From NCBI GenBank assembly GCA_003245715.1, contig QKCJ01000038.1:62001-126000 (forward strand): 64,000 bases of DNA, read 5' to 3'. The notes beneath the pieces are model-generated. The model made no database searches. It saw nothing but the letters and a program-made list of their open reading frames with translations, and had not been told where the DNA came from. Source of the stretch: a bacterium. Its GTDB lineage: Bacteria > Planctomycetota > SZUA-567. Positions within the stretch are counted from its first letter, which is position 1; each line of letters opens with the position of its first letter. Positions 1 to 63,104 of this stretch are shown here, one piece after another. The position numbers were made by a program, and so were the translations under genes.

Positions 1-836
1 AGTGACATATCAGTGGTGTCGAGATAATGTCTTGCCCGGTTAACACGCAGACAATTGAGGTATTCAGTGTAATTGCAGCCGGTATAGCGCTTAAATTCAT
101 TACGCAAATGTCCCGGCGAAACATGCATTGCTTCCGCCACAGAAGTCAATTCAAGATGTTCGTTCATATGCTCAAACATAAAAAGCGAGGCCCTGTTTGT
201 CAGTAACTCTCCTGCGGAGGTTTGATTGGTTCGGGGTTTGTTTGCTGTTTGCCCTTGTTTGTTGCTCTGTTCTATTTCAGTTATATGTATCTGAAGTAAC
301 TGCTCAAGGATAACCTGAAGGCGCAAGCGTAATGACAATTGCAGGCTACTGCCTGTTAGTCTGGCTGGGGACAGATCAGTTTGCGGTATGCGTTGCCGCA
401 GCCTTGAGAGATTTTGATAATCTGTTACCAAAGCTAGAAGGTCGTTAAGGATAGACTGGTTGATATCAATACAGTTATTGCGCATCAATTCAAACGTATC
501 GCTCTTATGCAGAAAGCCGCAGAAAAGCCAGAGTACGTTTTTTTCTGAAATATTGGTATAACCATGGATCTGTCTGGGGAGGACGAGTAATCCCTTGCCC
601 GGTTGGAGTTCTATATTATTCCCAGAAACGACAGCCCTTGCTTTTTCATGAATAGGGATTACTAGAGTGTACTGGTTATGTAGGGCAAAGCCGAGTTTTA
701 TCGCTGGTCTGTTTCGCATAAAAATACGAATTGAATATGGTAGGCTCAGAGGGGCGGAATCATCACATTCATAATGAAAAGAATCCTCATTGACCAGATT
801 CTTGACCTTTTTGCAGAACGCAGATGAGAGCTGCAT
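1..836 (-). CDS. AraC-family transcriptional regulator (C-terminus cut by window edge)
   Basis: Seen by reading the reverse strand: an open frame from ATG at 836 runs off the left edge, about 278 codons. The start has an excellent ribosome site (AAAGGAGG, 4 bases before ATG). The first ~190 residues look like a cupin-type sensor (..VVSGNNIELQPGKGLLVLPRQIHGY..). The end holds an AraC helix-turn-helix pair, including VAEAMHVSPGHLRNEFKRYTG and YLNCLRVNRARHYL. AraC proteins of this shape bind a sugar and activate nearby carbohydrate genes. It is divergent from the GH63-like gene, which it may control (inference). The last few codons are missing. Confidence 0.85.
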   Translation of the reverse strand, partial: MQLSSAFCKKVKNLVNEDSFHYECDDSAPLSLPYSIRIFMRNRPAIKLGFALHNQYTLVIPIHEKARAVVSGNNIELQPGKGLLVLPRQIHGYTNISEKNVLWLFCGFLHKSDTFELMRNNCIDINQSILNDLLALVTDYQNLSRLRQRIPQTDLSPARLTGSSLQLSLRLRLQVILEQLLQIHITEIEQSNKQGQTANKPRTNQTSAGELLTNRASLFMFEHMNEHLELTSVAEAMHVSPGHLRNEFKRYTGCNYTEYLNCLRVNRARHYLDTTDMS

Positions 837-1013
837 CTTTCCTCCTTTTATGTTATTCGCTAATCTTTATTCTGTTATTATAATATCTGAAAAATATCAG
901 GTCAAGCCATTAACCTGCGCTAGGGTTAAAAATCCATGCTTTGAAGATATTTTTTATGGGCAGGCTAGGTGATATCCTACAAGCGTATAATAATTGTCCT
1001 ATATAAAGGTGTA

Positions 1014-2657
1014 ATGATGAAAGCAGAGAATTTGGAGAGTTTGCGCTGGTATAGCGGGCGTCTGATGGCTTATTCAGGTTTGGAGGGGCAGACCCGTTAT
1101 GCAACATCGCTTGTTGCGGCTACTGGAAGGAGTAATAACCTTGATATCAAGTTGCCTGAGCCGGCAAATTTGAAATTTGGACTTGTACATGAGCGCTCTG
1201 CATTTGGTGGCGATTTTTTCTGGCTTAAGGGGAAGTCGTCGACTGGCAAAGCTCTTAAGGTTAAAGGCTGTTTTGCTGATTGCCACCACTTGCTGATTAA
1301 TGATCCGGGGTGTGTGTGCAGTCTTGAGCAGCCTGAGAGCAAATACAGGTCAATACGCGCTGGGGACAATATGCTTGTGGGACTTGCTTCTGAATTTGAG
1401 CCAGCTCTTGCCGAAAAACCATTCAATGATTTGTGGGATAATTACGTCAAATGGTTTGAGGATCTTCCGTTAAAAGAAACCTGTGATAAGTTGCGGAATC
1501 ATACCCTTGCCAGAGCTGTCTGCCTGATGAAAACGCAAGTATACTCCCCGGATGAGAAGATAAAAAAACGCTGGACGACCCCCGACCGCTGGCCGCATCA
1601 GAAAATGTGGCTGTGGGATTCGGCCTTTCATGCAATTGGCTGGAGGCATCTTGATTGTTCTCTGGCGAAAGAAATACTTGAGGCTGTTCTTGATTGCGCT
1701 GATGAAGAAGGCTTTATCCCCCACATGATGAGTCCGGATTATTTTAGCACTATAACCCAACCGCCAGTACTTGCGCTTGCGGCAAATGAACTTCTTGCTT
1801 ATGGTGCAGACACTGGATGGCTTGAGAAGGTTTATCCGCCATTAGCTGCATACGTCAAGTGGGATCTTGAAAACCGTGATACAGATGGAGACGGACTGGT
1901 TGAATGGTTTATTGAAGAGGATATGAATTGCCGCAGCGGTGAAAGCGGCATGGATAATTCGACACGCTTTGATTCCGCTTTGCAACTTGGAGCTGTTGAC
2001 TTCAATTCGTTTCTATGTAATGAAAGCCGTTTGCTTGCAGAAATGGCTGGCAAGCTCGGCAAGACGGATGATGAAGAAAATTGGGGCAGAGAGTCGCAGC
2101 GGCTCAACAGTCTGATTGGCGAGAAGATGTACAACGCTGATAAGGGGTTTTACTTTGACTATGACGCACAAACGCAGAAGCAGACAGGAATAATGGCCAG
2201 CTCCGGATTTTTACCGCTACTATGCGATATCTCTGCTGAAATGGCTGGTAGCCTTGCCGATCATCTTGATAACCCCGAGACCTTCCTTACTCCCTTCCCG
2301 ATAGCAAGTATTGTTGAATCTGCTGGAAAGCATTCAACCGATATGTGGCGCGGTCCAAGCTGGATCTGTATCAACTGGCTGGTTTCTGAAGGATTGAGAA
2401 AGCACGGATTTGCGAAACAGGCTAATAAATTAGTGAAAAAAACAATAGAAGAAATTGAGCGCTGGTTTTATAATTATGGTGTGTTTTTTGAGTATTATGA
2501 TGATGAAGGTAATTGCCCTCCGCCCAGACTGATGCGTAAGGGCAAGGTCGCAGAGGAGTATGACCCGGAGCCGCACCCACATCAGGCAATCAAGGATTTC
2601 GGCTGGAGTGCGACGCTGTATCTTGATCTTGTCACGCGTTATGGCGGCGATGTTTAA
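1014..2657 (+). CDS. GH63/trehalase-like (alpha/alpha)6-barrel glycosidase
   Basis: About 547 residues. Start chosen at ATG 1014 (or the adjacent ATG 1017), after AAAGG at 1005-1009; an upstream in-frame ATG at 969 has no ribosome site. Family signatures seen: WPHQKMWLWDSAFHA near residues 190-203, DTDGDGLVEW near 290, GMDNSTRFD near 312, DMWRGPSWICINW near 442 and a C-terminal PHPHQAIKDFGWSATLYLDL. These match the GH63/GH37 clan that inverts alpha-glucosidic bonds. The Asp of GMDNS and the Glu of FFEYYD are candidate catalytic residues (inference). No signal peptide is visible, so it probably acts inside the cell on imported oligosaccharides. It heads a run with the pseudopilin-like and CBM-glycosidase genes. 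Substrate not determinable from sequence alone. Confidence 0.75.
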   Translation: MMKAENLESLRWYSGRLMAYSGLEGQTRYATSLVAATGRSNNLDIKLPEPANLKFGLVHERSAFGGDFFWLKGKSSTGKALKVKGCFADCHHLLINDPGCVCSLEQPESKYRSIRAGDNMLVGLASEFEPALAEKPFNDLWDNYVKWFEDLPLKETCDKLRNHTLARAVCLMKTQVYSPDEKIKKRWTTPDRWPHQKMWLWDSAFHAIGWRHLDCSLAKEILEAVLDCADEEGFIPHMMSPDYFSTITQPPVLALAANELLAYGADTGWLEKVYPPLAAYVKWDLENRDTDGDGLVEWFIEEDMNCRSGESGMDNSTRFDSALQLGAVDFNSFLCNESRLLAEMAGKLGKTDDEENWGRESQRLNSLIGEKMYNADKGFYFDYDAQTQKQTGIMASSGFLPLLCDISAEMAGSLADHLDNPETFLTPFPIASIVESAGKHSTDMWRGPSWICINWLVSEGLRKHGFAKQANKLVKKTIEEIERWFYNYGVFFEYYDDEGNCPPPRLMRKGKVAEEYDPEPHPHQAIKDFGWSATLYLDLVTRYGGDV

Positions 2658-2686
2658 TTGTGGATCATAATAAGCAGGAGAGAGAA

Positions 2687-3430
2687 ATGAATGCACAACT
2701 TACCGCTAATAATATCAGATCTGACGGTGTGCGCTTCACGCTAATAGAGATGCTGGTAGTTATAGCGATAATCAGTATCCTGGCCTCAATGCTTGCTCCT
2801 GCCTTGCAGAATGCGCTCAATTCGGCAAAAAGTGTTCAGTGCATGAATAATCTCAAACAGCAGAATATTGCCATTAATATGTATGATAATGATCTTGGTG
2901 AACGTCCTTATGCGTTGAAACTGGGGACTGTTGCTGAAGCTGGTTGGCCGGCCAATATCAATGCCAAATGGTATGCACTGCTTTACAAAAACGGTTATCT
3001 CGAAGTGACTGGGGCTTTGACTGCGCAGGGCGCTGATGGCAGAAATTGTGATATTTTGCTCTGCCCGACACAACCTGGCCCGATTGAAACATCATATGTA
3101 ATGAACGTCGCCTATTTCAATATGCTCGGTATAGCCTATGGCTCAAGTTATCTTGATTGGGCCAAGACACCATGTAAGGCGTCTCGCATTCCGTCTCCGT
3201 CAAAAAGAGCATATATTTTGGATGGTAGGGGTGGTGTGTATTCCGTAAGCTTTAAATATAATATGAACTATCCGCATGGCATGAGCAGTATGTATGTTAC
3301 TGAAGCCAATTATCAGTCCGCGCCCTATGATCTGGTTACAAATGCTCTTTATCTTGATGGGCATTCCTCCTCGCTTTCTTTTGCTGAATTTAGTTCTGAC
3401 TCACGCACCATCTGCGGCTGGGACAAGTAA
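2687..3430 (+). CDS. Prepilin-type N-terminal signal protein (pseudopilin-like)
   Basis: 247 residues from ATG 2687, preceded by GGAG six bases upstream; a GTG at 2660 is possible but lacks this site. Residues ~14-40 contain FTLIEMLVVIAII, the type IV prepilin/type II pseudopilin cleavage and methylation helix with the conserved Glu at +5. The rest is a periplasmic domain with four or five cysteines (CMNN, CDILLCP, CKAS) and a late YLDGHSSSL segment, like the H-X9-DG tail common in PVC pseudopilin paralogues. Such proteins are numerous in Lentisphaerota and Planctomycetota, often beside glycan enzymes; their role is unproven. It lies 29 bases after the GH63-like gene and ahead of a secreted glycosidase, so co-transcription is likely. 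Confidence 0.85.
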   Translation: MNAQLTANNIRSDGVRFTLIEMLVVIAIISILASMLAPALQNALNSAKSVQCMNNLKQQNIAINMYDNDLGERPYALKLGTVAEAGWPANINAKWYALLYKNGYLEVTGALTAQGADGRNCDILLCPTQPGPIETSYVMNVAYFNMLGIAYGSSYLDWAKTPCKASRIPSPSKRAYILDGRGGVYSVSFKYNMNYPHGMSSMYVTEANYQSAPYDLVTNALYLDGHSSSLSFAEFSSDSRTICGWDK

Positions 3431-3474
3431 TAAATCTGAATTGTTTGAGTATAATCTGGTGTGAAAGGTTACTT

Positions 3475-6400
3475 ATGAAAAAAATACCCGTATTTTTTGT
3501 GGTTGCGTTGATTGCTTTTGGTGCGATAGCGCAGGAGAGAGAGCACGCTGCTGAATATTATTTAGTTCCTCAGGCTGAAAGGGGCGTTGTCTGGATCAAG
3601 GATATCAAAAATAAGAAGGTTGTAACTGGTATTTCGGTACAGCCTAAATCATCCTTCAGCGATTTAAAATATAAACTTGAAAACGACGTTATTGAAATTG
3701 ACACAAGAGACCTGATTAAGAATAACCCTAAAGCAGTTGTTTGCCTAAGGTACAACGCCATCACTTACTCGCAAAGCGATAATCTTAAAAAATGTTTTGT
3801 GCAGGTTAAGGCTGGTTCTACGCCGGCAAATACAAAGCTGCGTTTGTTCTTCGAGGGGGCAACAGGCAAAGATAACAAACATTATTGGAAAGCAAAAAAC
3901 ATTGCGCTTCCGGCAGATCCTGCTGTTGTGCGGTTCGAGCAGAATCTCCCAAAGGATTTGGCCTCTCTTCATATTCGCTGCGATTTATTAAGCTCTGGTG
4001 TGTATAAGCTGTCAGATTTTTCGTTTGGTGTCTGTGAAGAATCTGTGATTGATGAAAGCAAAAACCAGATAATTAATGGTGGGGCGGAAGCAGGTTTTTA
4101 TAATACAGCGCTGATTGGCAAGGATGTTTTGGTGAAACCTGCAGAAGGTGTTTCATATGATGGGCGGGGGCGTAGCTTTGATAAGTTTTGCACTTTGGAA
4201 ATAGATTCGACAACTAAACATTCCGGGAAGAGTTCATTTAAGTTCGTCTCTGAAAAAGGGAGCGTTGGCTCATTTGTATTTAATTCGTTAAAATTTTTGG
4301 TGGGCAAGCCAGCCTGTTTTTCTGTTTGGATAAAAGCGGAGAAACCCAAAACGAAAGTATCGCTTACCCTGTATTTGTCATCGGGTATTGCCTATGTAAA
4401 AGAAGTTACAGCTGACACTGACTGGAAGCAGTATGTTTTAATGATCCCAACGTGGGGGGATAACGCTCCTAGCGTAACGAAAATTAATGATGTTGTCGGT
4501 AGCTCAGGAGCCTTGTATGGCGAGGTGATGCCAAGGATAAGTGCAAAGTCAACAATTTGGATAGACGATGCGGGTTTTTGCCTTGGCCGCGATCCTTATA
4601 GCCTGAATGCAAAACCATCAGTTATTGCATCCGCAAAACTTGATAATGACAGTAGCGTATATGATAGTGGCGCGAAGGTTGCAGCAGATTTCAAATTGTA
4701 TTCACCTGTTGATAAAGAAGTAAAGGTTTCATGGCGGCTTAAAGATTATGACGGCAAGACCGTAATGTCTAAAGAACTGCCTGAAATTAAACTGCAGGGC
4801 GGCAAAGATATTGCCTGGCATACAGACTTAATGCCTCCGGCTGGTTTGAGGGGTGCGCTTAACTGGTGTTTTAATATTGATGGGCAAGCGTATAATTTTT
4901 ACCTTGGTATTAATCCTGAAACTTTGAAACAGAATAAAAAACTGGGCATCAACTTTATGTCCCGGCAGAATACTGACATGGCGATTAAGCTTCTCAAAAA
5001 ATTCAGGTTCGGCAGTGTGCGCTTATGGTCGGCTTTTCGAGAACTTCCTTATCAAGGATTTACGGATGTTAAGGATTTCCATGACAATAACTTCTATGTG
5101 ATGATGTGCCTTAGTAATAGTGTCGTTGCGCCAAGATATTTTGTTCCGGTGGATTTTACCGAATATAAAAAATTGCTTAAAGAGCAGGCTGTTAAGGCCA
5201 AGGGATTGGTTGATTCTTATGAAATGCTTAATGAGCCTAATATCTGGACTGGCAGGGTGAGAAATCCTGATCCGGCAAAATATCAGGAAATGACCCCGAG
5301 GGCTAACGCGATGTTTATTGAAGCGTCAGCTTCGGTGCTGAAAAACGTTGATGATAAAGTAAAAATTGCCGGTCCGACAACCTGCCACACAGATATTGTC
5401 TGGACGGAGAATGTGCTGGCGGCAGGAGCTGCGAAAGATCTTGATATAATCTCTGAGCATCCTTATCGTGAAATCCCTGAACTGCCTGATTATGAAGAAG
5501 ACCTTGACCGTTTGAAAAATACGGCTGCAAGGTATGGCAATAAATTCAGTTTTGTTGCTTCTGAAGCCGGTGCGGTTGCGGTATCACATCCGGCTAACAA
5601 CCTGATTGATAATTCGATGCGTGACCAGATCTGGTACAATACACGAATGATGATTATCGGCTGGGCAAACGGTGTTGATAAGTACTATCATTTTTCAATG
5701 ACCCTTGACGATTTTGGGACTTCCTGGTGTATGTCAAAGCTTGGCAATCCTAATAATAATTGCCAGTCATTTCCAATGCCGGTAATGTATGCTCTGTCTT
5801 TTGCTTCAGATATTCTTGATGATTACAAACCGGAAGCACGAGTTAAAATCGGAATAAATCGCAGGGCATATGTTTTCTCCAAAGATGATGAGCGTGTGGT
5901 TGCTCTCTGGAAGTGGAACGGCGATGAGGAGAAAATGTATTTCAAGCCGGAACTGTCGGATAAAATTCAAGCCTATGATGTAATGGGTACTCCTATCCCT
6001 GCGAACAACATTATGCTCAATAAATTCCCGGTATATTTGCGCACAAATCTCTCCTTTAAGCAGATTGAGGAAAGTCTTATTAGTGCTCTTGCACAACCAG
6101 AGGGAGAATTGTTTGTTCCGGAGTTGATCATTACCGGTGCCAAAGAATTTAAAATTAATCTTAAAAACCGTACAGGTAAACCTCTTGAAGCGGAGATTAT
6201 TTCCTTAGGTAAAAACATCACAAAAAGCAGTGCTGATGGATACGTTAATATTGCGCCGGAAAGTTTTGCTTCTTTCACCTTTAATACGGTATCTGTTATT
6301 TCAACTTCTGAGCATCCGGCTAAATTTGAAGTTCGGACTAAAGGCAATAAAGTACAGAAAATAGATTACAATCTTCGCGCGTTGCTGGTTACGCGGCGAG

Positions 6401-7041
6401 TTAATGATATCATTATTGATGGCAAAACCGCTGATTGGAATGATTATCCAGAGCTGATGGTTCTGACAAACAAAAATGCCGTAAAACTTAAAGGCTGGGA
6501 CAAAAAGGAAGATAAGCTTACGGCCAAACTGAAAATGGCGTGGGACGATGATTATCTTTATCTGGCGTTTATAACCAATAAACCTGAATATGTGGCAAAC
6601 AATATTGCGCCTGGAGGAATGTGGAAGTTTGACAGTATCCAGATTGCCTTTGATCCACTGAAAAATGCTGCGGCAAATCAGCTTGGTTATCAGGATGACG
6701 ATTACGAATTTTCTGCCGGAGTATTTAATGACAAGCCGCTGGTATTCATGCATCGCTCTGCTGCTGCCACGTATGATAGTGTGAATAAGCCAGCGGGTAT
6801 TGTTGAAAGTGTTAAGTCTGCAGTCAGAACCGATGAAAATGGCAACACGGTTTATGAGTTGGCTTTCCCAAAATTACTGGTCAGCCCGTTCCGTCTTGAG
6901 GCTGGTTCGAGCATGCGCTTCAATCTGTTACTGAATATAAATAATGGAAAACAGCGCGTAGGTTGGCTGGAGCTGACCCCGGGGATCGGCTCAGCCCCGA
7001 AGAAGCCAGGAGCGTTTATGGGGCTGGTGCTGATTAAATAA
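3475..7041 (+). CDS. Secreted multidomain glycoside hydrolase with CBM-like domains
   Basis: 1188 residues from ATG 3475 (AAAGG seven bases upstream; an earlier ATG at 3445 would spoil the signal peptide). MKKIPVFFVVALIAFGAIAQ is a clear signal peptide. Residues ~200-370 resemble a galactose-binding CBM fold (GGAEAGF..SGKSSFKF). A TIM-barrel, clan GH-A-like region spans ~490-780, with YEMLNEPN near 581-588 (acid/base Glu in NEP) and FVASEAG near 697 (possible nucleophile). The last ~210 residues, from IIIDGKTADWNDYPEL, look like a CBM9/DOMON-type sugar-binding module. It probably degrades a polysaccharide outside the inner membrane. The exact GH family is not recognised. A strong terminator follows. 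Confidence 0.7.
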   Translation: MKKIPVFFVVALIAFGAIAQEREHAAEYYLVPQAERGVVWIKDIKNKKVVTGISVQPKSSFSDLKYKLENDVIEIDTRDLIKNNPKAVVCLRYNAITYSQSDNLKKCFVQVKAGSTPANTKLRLFFEGATGKDNKHYWKAKNIALPADPAVVRFEQNLPKDLASLHIRCDLLSSGVYKLSDFSFGVCEESVIDESKNQIINGGAEAGFYNTALIGKDVLVKPAEGVSYDGRGRSFDKFCTLEIDSTTKHSGKSSFKFVSEKGSVGSFVFNSLKFLVGKPACFSVWIKAEKPKTKVSLTLYLSSGIAYVKEVTADTDWKQYVLMIPTWGDNAPSVTKINDVVGSSGALYGEVMPRISAKSTIWIDDAGFCLGRDPYSLNAKPSVIASAKLDNDSSVYDSGAKVAADFKLYSPVDKEVKVSWRLKDYDGKTVMSKELPEIKLQGGKDIAWHTDLMPPAGLRGALNWCFNIDGQAYNFYLGINPETLKQNKKLGINFMSRQNTDMAIKLLKKFRFGSVRLWSAFRELPYQGFTDVKDFHDNNFYVMMCLSNSVVAPRYFVPVDFTEYKKLLKEQAVKAKGLVDSYEMLNEPNIWTGRVRNPDPAKYQEMTPRANAMFIEASASVLKNVDDKVKIAGPTTCHTDIVWTENVLAAGAAKDLDIISEHPYREIPELPDYEEDLDRLKNTAARYGNKFSFVASEAGAVAVSHPANNLIDNSMRDQIWYNTRMMIIGWANGVDKYYHFSMTLDDFGTSWCMSKLGNPNNNCQSFPMPVMYALSFASDILDDYKPEARVKIGINRRAYVFSKDDERVVALWKWNGDEEKMYFKPELSDKIQAYDVMGTPIPANNIMLNKFPVYLRTNLSFKQIEESLISALAQPEGELFVPELIITGAKEFKINLKNRTGKPLEAEIISLGKNITKSSADGYVNIAPESFASFTFNTVSVISTSEHPAKFEVRTKGNKVQKIDYNLRALLVTRRVNDIIIDGKTADWNDYPELMVLTNKNAVKLKGWDKKEDKLTAKLKMAWDDDYLYLAFITNKPEYVANNIAPGGMWKFDSIQIAFDPLKNAAANQLGYQDDDYEFSAGVFNDKPLVFMHRSAAATYDSVNKPAGIVESVKSAVRTDENGNTVYELAFPKLLVSPFRLEAGSSMRFNLLLNINNGKQRVGWLELTPGIGSAPKKPGAFMGLVLIK

Positions 7042-7083
7042 ATACTTGTTTTGGCATAGCTAAAACTATTTCTAAAATAAGCG

Positions 7084-7120
7084 AGCCGCAGGTATTTATA
7101 AACCTGCGGCTTTTTTTTTT
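7084..7120 (+). terminator. Rho-independent terminator after the glycosidase gene
   Basis: AGCCGCAGGT pairs with ACCTGCGGCT around an 8-base loop and is followed by a run of ten T. It ends the AraC-divergent glycan run and separates it from the convergent ppk gene. Confidence 0.92.
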
Positions 7121-7146
7121 AACGTTGAACATTTTTGGCGTTAAGA

Positions 7147-9285
7147 TCACACCGATGATTTAGCCACAAACATACCTTCCGCAGTGCGGCTGCGGTTTTG
7201 GGTTTTATTGCAGGCTTTGTTGTAAATAAATTCCTGACTGCGCAGTTGTTTGGCTTTCTTCTCAGGCATCTCAACGCGTTTATAAGAGCCGTCCTCCTGC
7301 ATTTGCCATGCCTTGACATTGTCAGAAAATCCTGCATCAAGGTTTTCAATTGCCTGCTTTTTGCAGATCGGGTCAATGATCGGGAACATTAATTCAAGAC
7401 GCATGTCGAAGTTTCGTTCCATCCAGTCAGCACTGGCCAGATAAACTTCTTCGTTGCCACCATTGTTGAAATAGAAGATACGTGGGTGTTCGAGGTACCT
7501 GTCGAGAATACTGAATACGCGGATATTTTCAGAAAGATTTTTGACTCCTGCGCGCAGACGGCAAAGTCCTCTGACGAGAAGGTCAATTTTTACGCCTTTG
7601 CATGAAGCGGCATAGAGAGCCTTGATTACATCCGGGTCGACAAGCGAATTCATCTTGGCGCGGATGCGGCCGGGTGATTCCGGAGTGTGAACCTCCATCT
7701 CGCGCTTTATCATTGTAAGGATGGTTTTACGAAGTCTTGTCGGCGCCATAGTCAGGCAATTCCAGCGCGGTGGCAGGGAGTAGCCTGTAATCACGTTAAA
7801 GAAACCGGATACGTCCTGCCCGATTTCCGGGCGGGTAGTAAAGAGTCCGAGGTCTGTATAAAGCTTGGCTGTTTTGTCGTTATAATTTCCCGTTCCAAGG
7901 TGGACATAGCGCCGGATGCCGTCTTTTTCCTTGCGGACAACAAGGAGTACTTTGCTGTGGGTCTTGTAGCCGACTACACCATAAATTACGTGCGCCCCGG
8001 CTGAATCAAGGGCTTTCGCCCAGCCGATATTGGCCGCTTCATCAAATCTGGCGCGAAGCTCAACAAGCGCGGTGACCTGCTTTCCGGTCTGTGCGGCATG
8101 GATAAGGGCCTGAACCAGCGGGCTTGCACCTGATACGCGGTAAAGGGTTATCTTGATTGCCAGAACATCAGGATCGTTTGAAGCTTTGCGGACCAGCTCA
8201 ACAACGGGATCAAATTTCTGGTAAGGCAGGCTCAGAAGATTATCGCTTTTTCGCATAACCTCGAAGATGTCACCGGAAGATAATTTCGGGTGGTCTTGCG
8301 CCGGCCATGGTTTCTCAATCAGATCAGGCCGGTCAACCTGTCCAATGAAGCCGAAGAAGCTTGATAATTCCAGAAGCCAGGGCAGACGAAAAATCTGCCT
8401 CTGATCGTTTACGCCAAGTTTTGTGCGCAGATAGGAGAGAATTTCTTCCGGCATGTCATCAGAGATTTCAAGGGTAATCGGATCACCCCAGCGCCGGCTG
8501 CGCACCGCTTCGTCAATTGCCCCAAGCAGATCGTCCGCAGATTCGTCATCAACAACCATCTCCGCGTCGCGCAGCAGCCTGAAGGCATACGCCCCTTCAA
8601 TCTCATAACCGCCCAACAGGTTCTTTGAATAAAGCCTGATGATGTCATCAAGCGCCGCCATTCTGACCTTTGAGTCGTTTGATGGCAATGTTATAAAACG
8701 GTGCATTGAGGTAGGCATCTGGACAAGCACAGTATCTGTTTTGTTGAAAAACATCTTGCCCTGCTCAACTGGCGCCACCCTGAAGAGCAGGTAAACCTTG
8801 CCACTGGCAAGAAGCGGGAACGGGTGTCCGGGATCTACCGCCATAGGGGTGATCGCCGGGGCGATATTTCCCTCATAGAAAGAGCTGAGAAACTCCTTGT
8901 CATCAGTTGTGAAGTCTGACGGGCGTACAAGTGAAATATTGTTTTCAGACAGCTGGGGCAGAACTTCATTGAAAAGGCAGTCATACTGTCGTTTGACCAT
9001 TGCATGTTTCTTCTCGGCCATACCTTCAAGTACCTGATCAGGAGAAAGCCCGGCCACATCGGTAGCGTGAACCCCCTCGCGTTTCAGGCGGATCATATTG
9101 GCAATTCGGACGGTTGTGAATTCATCCAGATTTGATGAGACAATGGCGATAAATTTAAGTCTGTCAAGAACCGGAACCTGCGAGTTTTCTGCTTCAGCCA
9201 GAACCCGGAAGTTGAAATCCAACCAGCTCAGTTCACGGTTGAGAAAGTTCTGCGGGGCGCCAAAATCATGATCTTCTTTGCTCAT
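7147..9285 (-). CDS. ppk1: Polyphosphate kinase 1
   Basis: 712 residues from ATG 9285; the open frame extends further but MSKEDHDF..NRELSWLDFNFRVL is the normal N-terminus. PPK1 makes polyphosphate from ATP, reversibly, at the membrane. Seen: NRELSWLDFN at the N-terminus, KTHSKVLLV with the likely phospho-accepting His near 443, LGTGNYN just after, and HPRIFYFNNGG..YLASADWMERN with the second active-site His near 601. The spacing matches E. coli His435/His592. It starts 4 bases after the stop of the exopolyphosphatase gene, so synthesis and breakdown enzymes are translated from one message. Confidence 0.96.
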   Translation of the reverse strand: MSKEDHDFGAPQNFLNRELSWLDFNFRVLAEAENSQVPVLDRLKFIAIVSSNLDEFTTVRIANMIRLKREGVHATDVAGLSPDQVLEGMAEKKHAMVKRQYDCLFNEVLPQLSENNISLVRPSDFTTDDKEFLSSFYEGNIAPAITPMAVDPGHPFPLLASGKVYLLFRVAPVEQGKMFFNKTDTVLVQMPTSMHRFITLPSNDSKVRMAALDDIIRLYSKNLLGGYEIEGAYAFRLLRDAEMVVDDESADDLLGAIDEAVRSRRWGDPITLEISDDMPEEILSYLRTKLGVNDQRQIFRLPWLLELSSFFGFIGQVDRPDLIEKPWPAQDHPKLSSGDIFEVMRKSDNLLSLPYQKFDPVVELVRKASNDPDVLAIKITLYRVSGASPLVQALIHAAQTGKQVTALVELRARFDEAANIGWAKALDSAGAHVIYGVVGYKTHSKVLLVVRKEKDGIRRYVHLGTGNYNDKTAKLYTDLGLFTTRPEIGQDVSGFFNVITGYSLPPRWNCLTMAPTRLRKTILTMIKREMEVHTPESPGRIRAKMNSLVDPDVIKALYAASCKGVKIDLLVRGLCRLRAGVKNLSENIRVFSILDRYLEHPRIFYFNNGGNEEVYLASADWMERNFDMRLELMFPIIDPICKKQAIENLDAGFSDNVKAWQMQEDGSYKRVEMPEKKAKQLRSQEFIYNKACNKTQNRSRTAEGMFVAKSSV

Positions 9286-9289
9286 TTTG

Positions 9290-10852
9290 TTATTGTTTCC
9301 TTGCCAGTTCGATATCAAGCCCTGTGATCTCGCAGAGTAATGAGCCTTTTGAGCGCATCGCCACACGTTCTACAATCAGGTCTGTCTTGCCATCTATTGT
9401 TATAAGAATTGATTTTTCATTAATATCCGCTTTAAGGTTGCGGATTACCTGAAGGTGCGGACGGTCAAGTGCGTCAGCAACTCTCAATATCGCCGCGAGC
9501 TTGCTTACCCTGAGGCGGTCAGAGAGCGGCAGACGGGCAAAATCCTGATGAGTCAGGTTCGGCAGAGCTTTACGGTGATAACGGGCGATCATCGCCACCA
9601 GCGAGCGCTCCTCACGGTTGAGGCCGACAATCTCCGACCATTCAATCAGGTACTGCGAATGCTTGTGGTGCGCCTCGTCACTGATAAACATGCCAACATC
9701 ATGCAGGATGCCTGCCACTTCAAGGTATAGCCTGTCCTTGCCTGAGAGGTCAAGGTAATCAGCCAGATAGTCATAAAGTGCGACCGACATCTGCGCAACA
9801 GCTATCGAGTGTGATTCATCGTAACCAAAACGCGCAGCAAGGCCGCGTGCTGACTGAATAACCTGTTCACTGAACTCAAGCAGCGGGTTCTGCCCCCATG
9901 CCCGCATCCGCAGGTCATATAATACCGAGGTCATCAGTTCAAGTTCGGCGATATAAAAGCACTTTGGCTTGATGGTTTTGAATAATCTCTCAAGTGTCGC
10001 CAGCGCAGGCATGAACAATTCCACTTCCGCCTGCGTAAAGCCAAACATCAGGGCAATGTCTTCATTGTTTGATTTGCGCTCCACCATACTGATTACCGAG
10101 GCGAATGCTTCCATCGGTACCTTCAGCCCGCCTTCAATGGCTTCTACCCCGTCAATATCAGCCAGAACCTTTTCAACCAGCGAGTTTGAGATAACGCAAT
10201 TGGAGATCGTATAATCCCGGAAGTGATTGAGAGTCGAGCTGACAACATTACGGATCACACTCTCCTGCAGCATCTGCCGGTCGCCATATCTGGTAAGGTT
10301 CTGAAACAGGCGCAGTGTTCCCAGACGGCGGTTGTTGGCAAGAACTATGTCCTCACCCTTGAGTAGCAGTGTTTCAGTCGAGCCGCCTCCCAGATCAACA
10401 AATAAAGTATAACCATTTGCTTCTGAAAGATTAAGCTCAAGAAACGGCAGCAACACCTGACAGGTCAGGCGACTTTCTTCAACCGCATCAATAACCGAGA
10501 TATTTATGCCTGATTCATGGCGGATACGGTCTACAACCAGATCACAGTTCTCGGCTTCGCGCATCGCACTGGTCGCAACAGCCAGTTCTTCGGCCTGATA
10601 GGTCTTGATAACTCCTGAAAATTTACACATTATCGAGCAGAGCGCCCGGAGGACTTCTGGGGTGATATAGCCGCGGTTAAAGGTATCTCGACCAACCGCA
10701 ACCGGATGAACCAGTTCTTCAAGTACGGTCATTTTGCCATCAAGCGACATCTCGGCAACACAAAGTCTTGCAGAAGTTGAACCTATATCAATAGCGGCAA
10801 TCTGTTTAGGTTTGCGGAAACGCTTGTTTTTTTTGGCTTTTTTGGTGGTCAA
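9290..10852 (-). CDS. ppx: Exopolyphosphatase / pppGpp phosphohydrolase (Ppx/GppA) with HD domain
   Basis: 520 residues. The N-terminal ~300 are the ASKHA-type Ppx/GppA fold (AAIDIGSTSARL, VDLGGGSTE phosphate loops). The C-terminal ~200 form an HD-type domain with LHDVGMFISDEAHHKHS near residue 382. It removes terminal phosphates from polyphosphate, and possibly from pppGpp. The start is TTG at 10852 with GGGAG about 7 bases upstream; the next in-frame ATG is 34 codons in and would lose the first phosphate loop. Oddly, an ATG-TAA minimal frame sits immediately before the TTG. Coupled to ppk1 downstream. Confidence 0.93.
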   Translation of the reverse strand: MTTKKAKKNKRFRKPKQIAAIDIGSTSARLCVAEMSLDGKMTVLEELVHPVAVGRDTFNRGYITPEVLRALCSIMCKFSGVIKTYQAEELAVATSAMREAENCDLVVDRIRHESGINISVIDAVEESRLTCQVLLPFLELNLSEANGYTLFVDLGGGSTETLLLKGEDIVLANNRRLGTLRLFQNLTRYGDRQMLQESVIRNVVSSTLNHFRDYTISNCVISNSLVEKVLADIDGVEAIEGGLKVPMEAFASVISMVERKSNNEDIALMFGFTQAEVELFMPALATLERLFKTIKPKCFYIAELELMTSVLYDLRMRAWGQNPLLEFSEQVIQSARGLAARFGYDESHSIAVAQMSVALYDYLADYLDLSGKDRLYLEVAGILHDVGMFISDEAHHKHSQYLIEWSEIVGLNREERSLVAMIARYHRKALPNLTHQDFARLPLSDRLRVSKLAAILRVADALDRPHLQVIRNLKADINEKSILITIDGKTDLIVERVAMRSKGSLLCEITGLDIELARKQ

Positions 10853-56015: not shown

Positions 56016-56092
56016 GCGCCCGTGGCCTAATTGGATATGGCATCTGACTACGGATCAGAAGATTAGGGGTTCGAATCCTCTCGGGCGTGCCA
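56016..56092 (+). tRNA. tRNA-Arg (anticodon ACG)
   Basis: 77 bases with encoded CCA. Acceptor GCGCCCG pairs with CGGGCGT (G1-U72 wobble), D arm GCC-GGC, anticodon stem TCTGA/TCAGA with loop CTACGGA, and T arm AGGGG-TTCGAAT-CCTCT. The ACG anticodon would become ICG by TadA. Its 3' half is duplicated at 57914, marking an integration site. Confidence 0.96.
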
Positions 56093-56193
56093 AATATTTA
56101 AACCCGCAAGTGTCTGTCAATTCAGGACTTGCGGGTTTTTGTTTAGTGAAATTCTGGATTTTTTGTAGTAATAAAAGTTTACTCGAAATGGCA
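56045..56193 (+). repeat. Direct repeat copy 1 (tRNA 3' half plus terminator), attL-like
   Basis: Begins TGACTACGG inside the tRNA anticodon arm and runs 149 bases to AAATGGCA. It matches 57914-58062 with no gaps: the first 87 bases are identical and about 12 differences fall in the last 62. It may be attL of an integrated element, or the product of a tandem duplication. Confidence 0.85.
56100..56140 (+). terminator. Terminator of the tRNA-Arg gene
   Basis: AAACCCGCAAGT pairs with ACTTGCGGGTTT around 15 bases, with trailing T. A second copy at 57969-58009 carries one C to T change that keeps a G-U pair. Confidence 0.85.
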
Positions 56194-56234: not shown

Positions 56235-57652
56235 CCTACGCAGTAAAGAGTAACATGGTAAACTTCGGCTTTAGGCAGCCGTTTTGAAAAATAATTAGTT
56301 GTCCCACGGGTGAACTTGCCCGTGCAAAAGCGTCACAAAAATATCCTACGTTGATATATTCGCTGTTTGATAATCTGACTATACGAAAACCAACCTGCAC
56401 TATGGCAGGTGGAATTGGCGAACACAATATTGGTCTGCATTTACGCAGCCTGATTATCTTGATCATCTTCAAGGTAATAATGCTTGAGTAGTCCTCCGAG
56501 GAACTTCCGGCACTTTACCTTGCTTGCATCAAACTTCTCGGGGTATGAAAAGTCAGGCGAGATGACTCTGTTATCCAACGATTGATGTGGCCGACAGTTG
56601 TTGTAATACTCAAGATGCTGTGCGACAATCCTATTGAGCTGCCCGAGACTAAAGCAGACAAAGCTGTTTAAACACTCACGTTTGAAGTGCGAGAAATAGC
56701 TCTCGATGTATCCGTTCTGGGCAGGGCAGCGGATGGCAGTCCTAATTACCTTGCCGTCCTTCCCCGGTGGAGAAGAAGTGTCAATGATTCTTTGGAAGAA
56801 GTCGTCAAAGCGCGGTGTATATTTACCGTCATTGTCGCGTATTAAAAAGCGCAGCTTGATCCCTTCGTCATCAAGCCAGCCAGCGACGTTGCGAGCCTGC
56901 TGCAGCAGCCATTCTTCGTCTGGATTGTACGTCGGTGGTGAAACATAAACACGACGCGAAGCGTAATGGATGAAGGCTATGCAGTATGCATCAAATCTAC
57001 CACGAAGGGTATAAATCGACTTTGATACCAGATCGCAGGAGACCATGGTTGACATGTTGCATTTAACAAAGTTTGCCCAGTTGCTGACCGGCGCGTTCTT
57101 TGTCCTGTTGGGTGGCGGTGTGATACCGTTCTCCCGACAAACCTTGAGTATGGTAGTACCGGATAGTTTTATGTTGAGCTTCATTAATTCACCAACGATT
57201 CGCAATAGTCCCCAACCAGGATTCTCCTTGACGAACCGGATGATCAGGGCTACAATCTGGTCACTAAGTTTGCGCTTGCGACCGGGTCTCTTAATCGGTT
57301 TATGGTTACGTCTGCGCCGCAGCCAGTTTTCATAGGTTCGGGGTTTGACGATCAGGATGCAGTCATCAACCTCGTGGTTCATGGTCTGTCCGATATCAAG
57401 CAGCTTCTCAATTTCTGCAGCGGTGGCGATGATGCGGGTCTTATCCAGACTTTCGAGCACGCGTAACAGGATGAAAACTTGAGCCCTGTAGAACGCTGCT
57501 CGTTTCTGTTCGACGGCTGGCAGTGAACCGATGATTTTCGTATAGATCAGGTGTTGAAGTTTTGACATTTTGCTCAGTTTCTATGTTTGAGTGATTTTTA
57601 AAGAAGTGCCGAGTAGAGAAGAAGTTAGGTATGTTGTTCTTTACTGCGTAGG
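56235..57652 (-). mobile_element. Insertion sequence with rve-type transposase
   Basis: About 1.42 kb bounded by 15-base perfect inverted repeats CCTACGCAGTAAAGA (56235-56249 and 57638-57652). One transposase gene inside. No target duplication is obvious at the ends. It lies inside the segment between the two tRNA repeats, so it may be a passenger rather than the element that used the tRNA. Confidence 0.75.
56441..57568 (-). CDS. DDE transposase, integrase (rve) core
   Basis: 375 residues. N-terminal helix-turn-helix region (RPGRKRKLSDQIVALIIRFVKENPGWGLLRIVGELMKL). Catalytic acids: Asp in MVSCDLVSK, Asp in IRDNDGKYT and Glu in NGYIESYFSHFKREC, with the usual HLEYYNNCRPHQSLD near the end. Resembles IS481/IS3-like integrase-core transposases. 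Intact and full length. Precise IS family not assigned. Confidence 0.88.
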   Translation of the reverse strand: MSKLQHLIYTKIIGSLPAVEQKRAAFYRAQVFILLRVLESLDKTRIIATAAEIEKLLDIGQTMNHEVDDCILIVKPRTYENWLRRRRNHKPIKRPGRKRKLSDQIVALIIRFVKENPGWGLLRIVGELMKLNIKLSGTTILKVCRENGITPPPNRTKNAPVSNWANFVKCNMSTMVSCDLVSKSIYTLRGRFDAYCIAFIHYASRRVYVSPPTYNPDEEWLLQQARNVAGWLDDEGIKLRFLIRDNDGKYTPRFDDFFQRIIDTSSPPGKDGKVIRTAIRCPAQNGYIESYFSHFKRECLNSFVCFSLGQLNRIVAQHLEYYNNCRPHQSLDNRVISPDFSYPEKFDASKVKCRKFLGGLLKHYYLEDDQDNQAA

Positions 57653-57913: not shown

Positions 57914-58062
57914 TGACTACGGATCAGAAGATTAGGGGTTCGAATCCTCTCGGGCGTGCCAAATATTTAAACCCGCAAGTGTCTGTCAATTCAGGACTTG
58001 TGGGTTTTTCTTTGGTAGGATTTTGGATTTTGCGTAGTAATAAAAAATTACTCTAAATGGCA
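57914..58062 (+). repeat. Direct repeat copy 2 (tRNA 3' fragment), attR-like
   Basis: Starts with 48 bases of the tRNA-Arg 3' half (57914-57961), including CCA, then the terminator. Not a functional tRNA: the 5' half is absent. Its similarity to copy 1 ends exactly at 58062, one base before the IS256-like fragment begins. Confidence 0.85.
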
Positions 58063-58181
58063 GAGAAGCAGAACAACGATGCGGCCAGACCAACTTTGGT
58101 CGGATAGCCCCCATGGGGGCTATAACCCTGGACTTTCTTTTTCTTTGTTAAATGAATTTGCGAAACTTTCTTGACACTACC
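58063..58181 (+). mobile_element. Terminal fragment of an IS256-like element
   Basis: 119 bases matching 61892-62010 in reverse orientation with a single mismatch. It contains the last codons of the transposase (KQNNDAARPTLVG, stop), the 20-base palindrome ATAGCCCCCATGGGGGCTAT (58104-58123) and the terminal sequence to CTTGACACTACC. The rest of the element is lacking here. Confidence 0.85.
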
Positions 58182-58259
58182 CGCCAAGGGGAACCGATAC
58201 GGTTGATCCATAATACAGCTTCAATAAAGAGTCGATTATTATTTGCAGTAACGCCACAA

Positions 58260-58505
58260 TCAGATTTTTTTCATGGCAACAAAGGCTATAATTTCATCAA
58301 TCTGTATCTCTCGGAGTTCGTAGCCCTTAAGATGCTTTACCTGAAAATCATGACAAGCCTTGCACGTTCTTTCCAGCCAGCTATTAATCGTTTTCCAAGA
58401 ATGACCGAGTATTCTACTAATTGCCGAAATATTAACGCCTTAGGCACACATATGACAAGCATAATTGATCTTTTCTTTTGATGCCCTGAGTCTGTGATAA
58501 GCTGA
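58260..58505 (-). pseudogene. Relic of an IS1-like transposase
   Basis: On the minus strand the frame reads AYHRLRASKEKINYACHMCA, stop, GVNISAISRILGHSWKTINS, WLERTCKACHDFQ, HLKGYELREIQIDEIIAFVA, MKKI, stop. The pattern of helix-turn-helix, then the IQIDE/L..FV segment, is that of IS1-family transposases. An internal stop and missing ends show decay. Confidence 0.6.
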
Positions 58506-58779
58506 TCCCTGATTGGAGTTAAAAGATTTGCCTCAGGCCTTATATATGTATTTGCGGCGTCTTGGAGTTGTAGTTTATACCACCGTGAGTACGGATGTTC
58601 CCTTCGTTGGCTTTATTACGAAGTAAACATTCCGGATTCATGCAATTTATTCTTGATATTCTTTGCCAGGACTGCCCTTCCCGACCCAAATAATCAAGCT
58701 TAACAGTTTATCATCATTAAGTTTAAGATCAATGGCACTACACAGAACGACAGAAGTACCCGATCATAAGTATTATAGG

Positions 58780-59125
58780 ATGAATTACTGGTTCACCAAC
58801 AATTCTTAATAAGCCACACGCCGGATTCTCCTTGATGAATCGAGCTATCAACTGTATAATCTTTTCAGGTATCCTAATCGGGTTGGGAAAGCGTATCTTG
58901 CGGCTCGGACGTTTGATGGACTCGCCTTCGTTTCAACGACACAGCCAGGTCTTATCTTGTAGACGGTTTGGCCAGCAGCATCAGTTCTGTGGCATTATGA
59001 TCTAGTAGCCGCCCTGCGCCAACAGCTGGTCGATCTCTTTCTGTGTTGCGTAGACTCGCTCGATACCTGTATCCTTGCGGTTGTATTTCAAAACCGTCTG
59101 TGAATAAAGAAGTTGCATTGGCAGT
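58780..59125 (-). pseudogene. Decayed relic of an rve-type transposase, paralogue of the IS at 56235
   Basis: Fragments in shifting frames match the intact transposase at 57568-56441. SIKRPSRKIRF and EKIIQLIARFIKENPACGLLRIVGE match KPIKRPGRKRKLSDQIVALIIRFVKENPGWGLLRIVGE; GIERVYATQKEIDQLLAQGG matches TRIIATAAEIEKLLDIGQ. Stops (…GGY, stop) and lost segments mean it is not functional. The stretch 58506-58779 shows no clear gene. Confidence 0.6.
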
Positions 59126-59217
59126 TGTTGGGAGGATAGAACGATACCTGAACAGGGCTGGTTAAGTTTCCGTTCAGGACTTTAATCTAATATTTCAATT
59201 ATCAAGAGGGGGATAAC

Positions 59218-61836
59218 TTGGATTACCAAAGTCAATTAAGCCAGATAGATGAACTTATCTGTAGTAAGGATTTGGGGAAAGCAATTTCTGCTTTGCTTAA
59301 CATTATATCACAAGCACCGGAATTGTCTGCAGCGTATGAAAAACTTGTCGAACTGTCTCTCACTACAGGACAGTTTGAGCAAGCTATTACTTATTTTGAA
59401 TTAGCACATGCTAAACTACCTTATATAAATCTAACAACTTATATTTCTATCATAAAATTTTTGATCCATTCAAAACGCATTGTTGAAGCCAAAAGGGTTT
59501 TAGTTATCGGTCTGGAACGTTATCCTCAAGATCAGCAACTTCTTAAATTGCAGGAAGAAGTTTTATTCCCAAATAAGTTCGATGTTCAATCAAATGCTCA
59601 GAAGAATGTGAAACACACTATTCAACAAGCTGCGCAGTTTTTTGAACTTGATGCAAAATTTACTCGTCTTCCTTCAAATGCCAAAATTGCTTATCTGGGA
59701 AATCTAAACGGTATTCCACTAATTGCAGAAGCGATCAAAGCATTCCGGCCTGATATTATTAATGAAATATGCATTGATATTTCTCCTAAATCGCCCTATA
59801 TTGGCAAGCCTTTTGAGCATAGTTTATTCAACATCATCGGATTGAATGCTGTCAAAAGCCAAAACAATAAAGTTGATACATATATTTCGGTTGGGAGCAC
59901 TTCTGAGCATGCCAAGGGAATGGCTGATTTTATGATACAGAATTGTGGTCTTGAAAATGAAAACATTTCAATCTTTTTGCTTCCTTCGTCAAATATCCCT
60001 GATCCTGTTACAAGCATTGATTATGATATTCTTTCGAAAACTCAATTGGGCGGTTCTGACCTCTATTTTCATTCAGTTCAGAAATTATACCCTGAGAGCA
60101 GCCCAAACTTCAATAACTATCAGGATTTTTTGCGTGATTTCTATCCACATGTTGCGTCCTCGACTTATTTTCATGCTTTCAGTAGAATCTATCAGAGCAG
60201 GGCACTTCTCGTGTTGATTCATTATGATTCTGAAAAAATATATAATAGTAATTCATCTGCGCTTAATCTTTGCAAGGATAGATGGGAGGTGCTTGATGAA
60301 GAGCATATTCAAAACATGTGGGGGGATATTGATTATTGCACCTCAGATTACGTAAAATCAATTGCAACCCTGCCAACGGCCATTAAGACCCGCAATGGAA
60401 TTGTTTTAAACGATATGGAAAATACATGGGTTACAATAAAGAATGGATACCGCACGACAACTGGCGTTCCAGAGGAACACGATAATTCAATATATTTACT
60501 GGGTAATTGCCTGGCTTATTCTCCAGGAACTGAAGATCGGCATACAATGGCCAGTTTTCTTCAGGCAAGAATAAATGAAGATCACATTCTTAGTTGCAAA
60601 TATGGGGTATATAATCGAGGGATACCTGGTATCTCTTATGATCAGGCATTATATCAGTTATACACGACAGAACTTGAAGAAAAAGATGTTGTGGTTATGC
60701 GTGTTGATAAAAATAATTTTGAAGTAATCAAAAAAGCTGCGATGAACTTTGATAATATCTTCCTGCTTGATATTGGAGATGACCTTCGGCTCATTCCTGA
60801 AAAAATGTTTTGGGATGGCTGGCACTGGACGTACCGACTGTGTTCGCAGCAGGCAGATATTCTTTATGGTTGTTTGCAATATATCTACAGGCGGATTGTT
60901 GATGGTAGCGTTTGGTTTCGTCAACCTCAACAACTCAACGATTATTGCTATAATTCACAATTGGCTGAATATTGGTTTGATTTACAGAAAAAAAATTACG
61001 AAAAAACCGATGAAGAATTACTGCAATATCTCGAAGAACTCAAAACTATTTCGCTCAAGCCTGGTATTACAGGAAGTATTGTAATGAACTGTAATCCATT
61101 TACTAAAGGCCATCGTTATCTGATAGAATATGCCTCAGGTAGGGTGGATAACCTGATTATTTTTGTGGTTGAAGAAGATAAATCATTTTTCAAATTTACG
61201 GATCGAATTGAACTTGTTAAGGACGGGACATCTGATCTTGCTAATGTCACAGTAATACCGAGCGGCAAATTTATTATTTCTTCAATAACATTTCCTGGAT
61301 ATTTCAATAAGGAAGCTCCTGATAGTTTTACAATCAATGCTGCAAGTGATTTGGAAACCTTTGGGAAATTTATTGCTCCCACTGTCAATATTACACAGCG
61401 CTTTGTTGGAGAAGAGCCCAACTGCCATATTACACGGCAGTACAATGAACAAATGCATAAATATCTTAAGCCTTTAGGCATTAATGTTATTGAAATACCT
61501 AGAGTTGAAACCGAGGGGAAAGCAATCAGCGCAACATTAGTTAGGAATTATATTCTTTATTACTATTGTTTTTGTCACTTTCTTTGCGACCAAACGCCAC
61601 AACAGCATAAAAAAACAGAATCGCTTATTTCTGAGGGTGATTTCAATGAGTTGCTAAAAATAATTCCACATCACCTATACGAGAAAGCTAAAAATGAATT
61701 AATGCATATAGACGAAAAGTTATCAGAAAGTACGGATTCCCCGGAACTATCCCAAGAAATCCTCAAACATCTCAAAGAAATAGTACCTGACTCAACGTTA
61801 CGTTTTCTCGCGGATCGTTTTTTTTCTAGTTTCTAA
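59218..61836 (+). CDS. TPR / SGNH-like / citrate-lyase-ligase-type nucleotidyltransferase fusion
   Basis: 872 residues from TTG 59218 with AGGGGG six bases upstream. TPR-like helices occupy ~1-115 (AYEKLVELSLTTGQFEQAITYFELA). A Rossmann-like part lies near 150-270 (AKIAYLGNLNGIPLIAEAIKAF). A segment at ~425-560 has YLLGNCLAYSPGTEDRHTMASFLQ, NRGIPGISYDQALYQLY and FWDGWHWTYR, which fits an SGNH-hydrolase-like fold with Cys where the nucleophile Ser is expected. Residues ~618-780 match the CitC ligase catalytic region: SIVMNCNPFTKGHRYLIEYAS (HxGH-type), VVEEDKSFF, TFPGYFNKE, RFVGEEPNC and ISATLVR (ISxTxxR). The gene is AT-richer than its neighbours and bracketed by inverted IS256 ends. Likely activates or attaches an acyl or sugar group; the substrate is unknown. 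Confidence 0.72.
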   Translation: MDYQSQLSQIDELICSKDLGKAISALLNIISQAPELSAAYEKLVELSLTTGQFEQAITYFELAHAKLPYINLTTYISIIKFLIHSKRIVEAKRVLVIGLERYPQDQQLLKLQEEVLFPNKFDVQSNAQKNVKHTIQQAAQFFELDAKFTRLPSNAKIAYLGNLNGIPLIAEAIKAFRPDIINEICIDISPKSPYIGKPFEHSLFNIIGLNAVKSQNNKVDTYISVGSTSEHAKGMADFMIQNCGLENENISIFLLPSSNIPDPVTSIDYDILSKTQLGGSDLYFHSVQKLYPESSPNFNNYQDFLRDFYPHVASSTYFHAFSRIYQSRALLVLIHYDSEKIYNSNSSALNLCKDRWEVLDEEHIQNMWGDIDYCTSDYVKSIATLPTAIKTRNGIVLNDMENTWVTIKNGYRTTTGVPEEHDNSIYLLGNCLAYSPGTEDRHTMASFLQARINEDHILSCKYGVYNRGIPGISYDQALYQLYTTELEEKDVVVMRVDKNNFEVIKKAAMNFDNIFLLDIGDDLRLIPEKMFWDGWHWTYRLCSQQADILYGCLQYIYRRIVDGSVWFRQPQQLNDYCYNSQLAEYWFDLQKKNYEKTDEELLQYLEELKTISLKPGITGSIVMNCNPFTKGHRYLIEYASGRVDNLIIFVVEEDKSFFKFTDRIELVKDGTSDLANVTVIPSGKFIISSITFPGYFNKEAPDSFTINAASDLETFGKFIAPTVNITQRFVGEEPNCHITRQYNEQMHKYLKPLGINVIEIPRVETEGKAISATLVRNYILYYYCFCHFLCDQTPQQHKKTESLISEGDFNELLKIIPHHLYEKAKNELMHIDEKLSESTDSPELSQEILKHLKEIVPDSTLRFLADRFFSSF

Positions 61837-61965
61837 TACCTGAATCCGTGAGCTTTTGCTCTAATATTGTTTGGTACTTCCGTAATTAAGCGGTAGTGTC
61901 AAGAAAGTTTCGCAAATTCATTTAACAAAGAAAAAGAAAGTCCAGGGTTATAGCCCCCATGGGGG

Positions 61966-62286
61966 CTATCCGGCCAAAGTTGGTCTGGCCGCATCGTTGT
62001 TCTGCTTCTCCTCCTTTCCGTCCTCTTCTGTATCAAATTTCAAATACCGTTTCAATCCCCACTTCGTTCCGGCAACATGCCGCAATCTTGCCGCTACAAG
62101 CATCAGAGCACTTTTATCGTCAGGGAAGTTGCCGACCACCCGTGTCATTCTTATAACCTCACGGATCACCCGCTCCAACGGATTGTTCGTTCGGATCTTC
62201 CTCCAGTGGCTGCGGGGATATTTCATGTACGTCAACGTCTCAGCCGCACTCTCCCTGACATGTTCTGCTGCCTTACCAAGTTTCAT
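61966..62286 (-). pseudogene. IS256-family transposase, C-terminal part
   Basis: 106 codons from ATG 62286: MKLGKAAEHVRESAAETLTYM, KYPRSHWRKIRTNNPLERVIREVIRMTR, VVGNFPDDKSALMLVAARLRHVAG, the standard C-terminus of mutator transposases, including the catalytic-region NNPLERVIRE. It overlaps the N-terminal part by four bases (ATGA) in another frame. In relatives these are one chain, so a one-base deletion before the ATG is the likely cause. Confidence 0.8.
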
Positions 62287-63104
62287 CGTTTGAGTTTGGC
62301 GACTACAGCAATTACTTTCTCATCCGCTGCCGCACGGTCTTCCTGCGCATGGATCGCCTTAAGCATTGCTGCAACTTCTTTAGTTTTACTCTTTGGTACA
62401 TTCTTAAGAATGTTGCGATACCAATGAACAGTGCAGCGCCGCCAGTCGGTTTCGGGGAACACTTCCGCCAGCGCCTCAACCAAGCCTAAACACTTATCAC
62501 TGGTCACCAGTTGAGGTGGCTTGAGTCCACGCTCCTTAAGGTGCTTGAGGAAATCCAGCCAGCCTTCCTTGTCTTCCTTGCAGCCTTCGACCGTACCAAG
62601 AACTTCACGGTAGCCATCCTGATCTACCCCAACAGCAATCAGTACGGCGACATTTTTCACCTCACCGCCCCAGCTGCTTTTGAACCACATCCCGTCGAGC
62701 GCAACGTATTTATATTTGCCTGTAAGTGCCCGGTTGCGCCACTGTTCAATTCGTTCATACGCCTTCTGATTGAGCTTGCTGACCGTGCTAGGGCTGACCT
62801 TCTCGCCCCACAACGCTTCGGTGATATCTTCCACTCTCCTTACCGAAACACCGGCAAGGTACATTTCAATCAACGCCTCCTCAACACTGCACTCACGGCG
62901 ACGATAACGCTCAATGATGGCGCTCTCAAAAGGCAATGACCTGAGCTTGGGAACCTGCAGCGTCACCGTGCCTGCTTTCGTCTGCAATTTCCTGTCTCGC
63001 TTGCCGCAACGGTAATCTTTGCGTTCAGCATTGCGCTCATACCGTTTTGCTCCACATAGACGGTCAGCTTCTTCAACAAGCAAGGTGTTGAGTGTTTCCT
63101 CCAC
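62283..63104 (-). pseudogene. IS256-family transposase, N-terminal part
   Basis: 273 codons from GTG 63104 (AAGGGA just upstream; a TAA blocks the frame 12 codons before). Motifs: VPKLRSLPFESAIIERYRRRE, YLAGVSVRRVEDITEALWG, the first catalytic Asp in YVALDGMWFKSSW, the second near VTSDKCLGLVEAL, and the mutator signature WRRCTVHWYRNIL. Ends KLKR, stop, at the frame break. Together with the C-part it would be about 380 residues, normal for IS256. Confidence 0.82.

Follow-up and report, generated by a model that had tools for sequence, protein, structure and literature searches.

SGNH domains are most often hydrolases, and the SGNH-type glycan O-acetyltransferases of the AlgX and OatA/PatB kind act outside the cytoplasm, with the acyl group delivered across the membrane. 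HIGH domains include those that make NMP-phosphate products (PPAT, TagD). Citrate lyase ligase (CitC) uses ATP and acetate to acetylate a thiol, the prosthetic group of citrate lyase (PMC10798043), and TmcAL activates acetate to acetyl-adenylate (PMC8779196, PMC12514573). The SGNH and CitC-type domains are each known singly; here we describe a gene that unites them in one chain.

The gene lies in the window, the whole stretch of 64,000 nucleotides that was analysed (Table 1). Its frame is uninterrupted and opens with a TTG codon, preceded by what appears to be a strong ribosome-binding site. The preliminary description had read the product as TPRs, an SGNH-like domain with its Ser replaced by Cys and a C-terminal CitC-type domain. 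This three-domain architecture holds in Pfam, in profile searches and in AlphaFold/Foldseek analyses, which recovered both the SGNH fold and a C-terminal HxGH fold, and the Ser to Cys replacement is confirmed at C431. The TPR part is weak in the window copy, with sub-threshold matches at residues 39-112 (PF14559 at 24.4 bits against a cut-off of 25), and is strong in relatives L123 and L008. In the AlphaFold model, the region between the TPR-like helices and the SGNH domain has pLDDT values mostly of 30-50 up to about residue 310 and of 60-88 beyond; the full-length model (pTM 0.44) fixes no relative placement of the domains. No signal peptide was apparent by eye, and the protein is predicted to be cytosolic. 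The C-terminal tail is longer than in relatives, with about 26 Tyr/Cys/Phe-rich residues directly after ISATLVR; this insert was considered as a repeat element and rejected, as it occurs in a single copy in the genome.

Table 1. Features of the fusion gene and its surroundings (positions in the window)
Feature	Position	Strand	Basis
Left inverted copy of IS256-type end	58056..58181	+	Sequence comparison
Shine-Dalgarno-like AAGAGGGGG	59204..59212	+	Sequence; 5 nt before TTG start
ORF, 872 aa: TPR-like helices, unassigned region, Cys-SGNH, CitC-type HIGH nucleotidyltransferase	59218..61836	+	ORF list, Pfam, AlphaFold
TPR-like helical repeats, residues 1-112	59218..59553	+	PF14559/PF13428 just under cut-off; helices in AlphaFold model
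Region without Pfam match, residues 113-371	59554..60330	+	Low-confidence model
SGNH domain, about residues 372-560	60331..60897	+	Profile search, AlphaFold, Foldseek
TGC, Cys431, candidate SGNH block I nucleophile (GNC)	60508..60510	+	Alignment of relatives
Asp533-x-x-His536, SGNH block V	60814..60825	+	Alignment; His in 79/79
CitC-type HxGH nucleotidyltransferase domain, residues 618-776	61069..61545	+	PF08218 1.7e-60; Foldseek PPAT/PanC
HxGH motif N-C-N-P-F-T-K-G-H, residues 624-632	61087..61113	+	Alignment
C-terminal tail, residues 777-872	61546..61833	+	First ~26 residues found in no relative
Right IS256-type end	61892..62017	-	97% complementary to left copy
Mutator-family (IS256-type) transposase, broken	61966..63104	-	Two ORFs, 61966-62286 and 62283-63104; PF00872 1.3e-83

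A profile of 79 relatives, searched against the PDB, matched the TesA-like esterase 9otv (E 4.4e-7) and 1yzf (E 3e-5), both aligning across the SGNH catalytic blocks. The AlphaFold model of residues 372-612 had a mean pLDDT of 84.5, and its top Foldseek matches were SGNH/GDSL enzymes (a polyesterase, CgnD and TesA; best E 2.4e-4). An SGNH fold is thus present by both approaches. The triad reads C431, D533 and H536; the usual catalytic Ser is absent from block I, and block II (V464xN466xG468), block III (D490) and block V are all present. At the nucleophile position the 79 relatives with both domains carry Cys in 61 cases, Ser in 17 and Gly in one, the share of Cys being biased upward, since relatives were ranked by their similarity to a protein that itself has Cys. 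The catalytic His is kept in every one of them, and the Asp position is occupied by Asp (65), Asn (8), Glu (5) or Cys (1). When mapped on the tree of the neighboring HIGH domain, the nucleophile has undergone at least eight changes between Cys and Ser. Because this position exchanges Cys with Ser and accepts almost nothing else, next to an unchanging His, Cys431 looks like a working nucleophile. A Synergistaceae relative (L088:8525-11233) apparently has two SGNH modules; the aligned one has Gly at the nucleophile position (GDG) and is perhaps inactive, with a live copy next to it.

The C-terminal domain matched PF08218 (Citrate_ly_lig) at residues 619-779 with an E value of 1.7e-60, the general CTP_transf_like model reaching only 0.12. 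A Foldseek search with the full-length model returned the HxGH fold, with PPAT/CoaD as the nearest solved folds (E 2e-7, TMt about 0.7-0.8) and PanC also among the matches; no CitC structure turned up as a template. The window protein keeps 42 of the 45 CitC-invariant positions, as defined from five CitC controls lying in citrate-lyase operons, and for 32 of the 45 the residue is retained by 95% or more of 80 family members. The conserved residues match those of CitC (NPFT.GH, YF.K, RF.GEEP, T..YN, R762 and ISA..VR); N-C-N-P ahead of T.GH is constant in the fusions, partly by selection, since one of the two scan patterns required it. In the five controls a GNAT domain precedes the HIGH domain; in the fusions the GNAT half is missing and the SGNH domain occupies its position. 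PF05636 (HIGH_NTase1, the TmcAL family) scored 9.8 bits against a cut-off of 27 in the window protein, over residues 620-648 only, and matched 42 of 55 relatives weakly though significantly.

The preliminary description had treated the protein as a one-off fusion, which it is not. A scan of genome contigs with an SGNH+CitC alignment revealed 77 loci with both domains, 75 of them with an intact frame, so that the protein belongs to a large family with at least 75 intact relatives; the scan with the single protein as query returned none. Altogether 378 stretches were related, and plain CitC may account for some of them. The 77 loci hold 93 fusion-type ORFs (L040-L116 range), and several contain side-by-side paralogues. 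The relatives are spread over at least eight phyla, and many of them come from animal guts; represented are Bacillota, Actinomycetota, Spirochaetota, Synergistota, Pseudomonadota (Vibrio, Stenoxybacter), Campylobacterota, Bacteroidota and Riflebacteria. No relatives were found in viral contigs, and phage records contained only CitC-type matches, in three records. Searches of open-licence PMC papers found none on the fusion family (including citrate lyase ligase with SGNH) or on an SGNH cysteine-nucleophile acyltransferase. As far as these papers show, this widespread bacterial family has apparently gone unstudied, as has the union of the two domains with a Cys nucleophile.

The N-terminal modules vary among relatives and include CBS, ILEI, FrhB/Fer4, polysaccharide pyruvyl transferase (PS_pyruv_trans), RgpF and GT2, with direct fusions to GT2, RgpF, PS_pyruv_trans and FrhB. 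Glycan genes often stand beside the fusion: GT2 accounts for 9 of 87 adjacent genes and recurs in 20 loci, these being raw counts from relatives picked by similarity to the window protein. Other adjacent genes encode GT4, GT8, FkbM, PS_pyruv_trans, epimerases and radical SAM proteins, and recurrent neighbors read by eye were DegT, UDP-sugar dehydrogenase, NeuA-like and LicD. In the same-family genome G010, the gene is the last of a tight operon after SIS/GmhA-like, HldE-like and NTP-transferase genes, and is followed by a TIGR04372 glycosyltransferase gene. Next to the 911-aa TPR and CitC-type protein of the L008 locus (1-10018, Smac51 plasmid) lie genes for a sulfonate ABC transporter, CysC/CysD and a protein with a sulfotransferase domain; in the 911-aa protein, a permuted N-terminal SGNH domain, suggested by a visible GDS motif, was unsupported by profile or PDB sequence search.

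The window copy has IS relics as its only neighbors, without glycan genes beside it, and is present once in its own genome. As had been noticed initially, the gene is AT-rich (GC 36.4%, GC3 30.6%, compared with 47.0% for the window) and lies between inverted IS ends, which prove to be of IS256 type, 126 nt each and 97% complementary; a broken mutator-family transposase adjoins one of them. In the HIGH-domain tree the window protein does not group with support with its same-family relatives L003 and L004, which, together with the gene composition, fits horizontal acquisition, and the acquired look of the copy is upheld by its composition and the IS256-type ends. Several further traces of mobility were observed nearby. 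A duplication of 149 nt (92% identity), at 56016-56193 and 57914-58062, takes in the 3' part of tRNA-Arg(acg) and the sequence downstream of it; an rve-type (IS481/IS3-like) transposase at 56441-57568 lies between the copies, and the arrangement resembles a scar left by integration or duplication. Several IS relics lie at 58200-59150. One is a second fragment resembling the integrase at 56441-57568 (71% over 76 nt); another, on the minus strand, looks like part of an IS1595-type transposase. Downstream of the window, a carbohydrate-degrading setting of a different kind is seen at L122:1563-8194, where ADP-ribosylglycohydrolase and GH42-like genes lie with a prepilin-type N-terminus.

We propose, at about even confidence, that the protein acts as a single-chain cytosolic ATP-dependent acyltransferase. 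Given its relationship to CitC and TmcAL, the HIGH domain would adenylate a small carboxylate, probably acetate, to form acyl-AMP. The acyl group would then pass to Cys431 of the SGNH domain, standing where CitC carries GNAT, to give an acyl-thioester enzyme, as the Cys/Ser exchange suggests. With help from Asp533 and His536, the acyl group would finally be handed to a sugar, a nucleotide sugar or a lipid-linked glycan, at a hydroxyl or amine group; the genome context of relatives points to this as a step that would tailor surface polysaccharides during their synthesis. Choice of the partner or substrate would fall to the TPRs and the other modules at the N-terminus. The order acyl-AMP, Cys431, glycan or sugar nucleotide seems the most likely on account of the chemistry of CitC, which joins acetate to a thiol at the expense of ATP, and of TmcAL, which forms acetyl-adenylate. 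The combined activating and acyl- or glycan-transfer enzyme put forward in the preliminary description appears clearly better supported now, on the strength of family conservation, the Cys/Ser exchange and the glycan clusters. More tentatively, and somewhat short of even confidence, the fusion may represent CoA-independent glycan acylation, in which one cytosolic protein takes free carboxylate and ATP through the Cys-SGNH domain to a sugar.

The PF08218 match and a partial TIGR00124 match could suggest that the protein is a genuine citrate-lyase ligase to which domains have been added, a reading that is close to refuted. The score against TIGR00124 (NCBIfam full CitC) is 193.7 bits, below the cut-off of 262.1, with the GNAT half missing; in the fusions the matches to this model begin at about its position 118 and stay under the cut-off. 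The HIGH-domain tree sets the five CitC controls apart from all 80 fusions (SH-aLRT 95), although its CitC side consists of five rows only, one on a long branch. Moreover, the absence of citrate lyase that had been noticed in the window extends to the whole genome (91% complete), where a family-by-family search detected neither CitF nor the citrate-lyase ACP. Across 392 genomes of the phylum there are four strong PF08218 matches: the window protein, two same-family fusions and one protein of 356 aa, the length of CitC. The 77 related loci contain no citrate-lyase genes, and a nearby acyl carrier protein was rejected after a motif scan found no ACP-like ORF in them. The lack of ACP and citrate-lyase genes in these searches also weighs against acyl-thioester proofreading or recycling, in which the HIGH domain would, like CitC (PMC10798043), load the thiol of a separate carrier and a TesA-like SGNH thioesterase would edit it; TesA thioesterases are indeed among the nearest SGNH folds, yet we consider this scheme quite improbable.

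The best rival, unlikely as we judge it, is a nucleotidyltransferase joined to a deacylase, the HIGH domain acting like PPAT and TagD, with CTP or ATP coupled to the phosphate of a sugar or polyol, and the SGNH esterase trimming acyl groups. The nearest solved folds agree with it on both sides, being PPAT for the HIGH domain, a class that yields NMP-phosphate products, and esterases or thioesterases for SGNH, mostly a hydrolase fold in which an active esterase is possible; some relatives also lie near sugar-nucleotide genes. However, the conserved HIGH residues match the acetate ligase CitC, and the PF08218 match far exceeds that of CTP_transf_like. The setting of the window copy, beside IS relics and away from glycan genes, likewise speaks against the acyltransferase reading, and raises the more doubtful prospect of a decaying passenger between IS elements, functionless in this genome; its single copy and the C-terminal extension missing from relatives would fit. 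Against such decay, the 872-aa frame is intact, its apparent ribosome-binding site is strong and every catalytic residue is kept.

If the acyltransferase mechanism is true, it would add a way of acylating surface glycans without CoA, account for many proteins probably mis-named citrate lyase ligase and offer a natural series of Ser/Cys swaps within an SGNH active site. Compared with CitC (PF08218/TIGR00124), the fusion has a HIGH domain with the same conserved residues and, by prediction, the same ATP and carboxylate chemistry, but it carries SGNH in place of GNAT, falls below the TIGR00124 cut-off, forms a separate branch and resides in a genome without detected citrate lyase. With TmcAL (tRNA-Met cytidine acetate ligase, PF05636) it has the NPF..GH motif region in common, whereas TmcAL has no SGNH domain and uses a tRNA acceptor, and the fusion is short of a full-length PF05636 match. 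The fold and blocks I, II, III and V are common to SGNH/GDSL hydrolases (TesA, 1yzf, 9otv; Pfam Lipase_GDSL_2), from which the family differs in its mostly Cys nucleophile, its attached acid-activating domain and its predicted cytosolic location. The SGNH fold is likewise common to the glycan O-acetyltransferases of the AlgX (a weak match, E 0.33) and OatA/PatB kind, and a role in surface-glycan acylation is proposed for the fusion too; unlike them, it is predicted to activate the acyl group within the same cytosolic chain. Compared with acetyl-CoA-dependent and membrane-relay acyltransferases, the proposed route would be self-contained and CoA-free.
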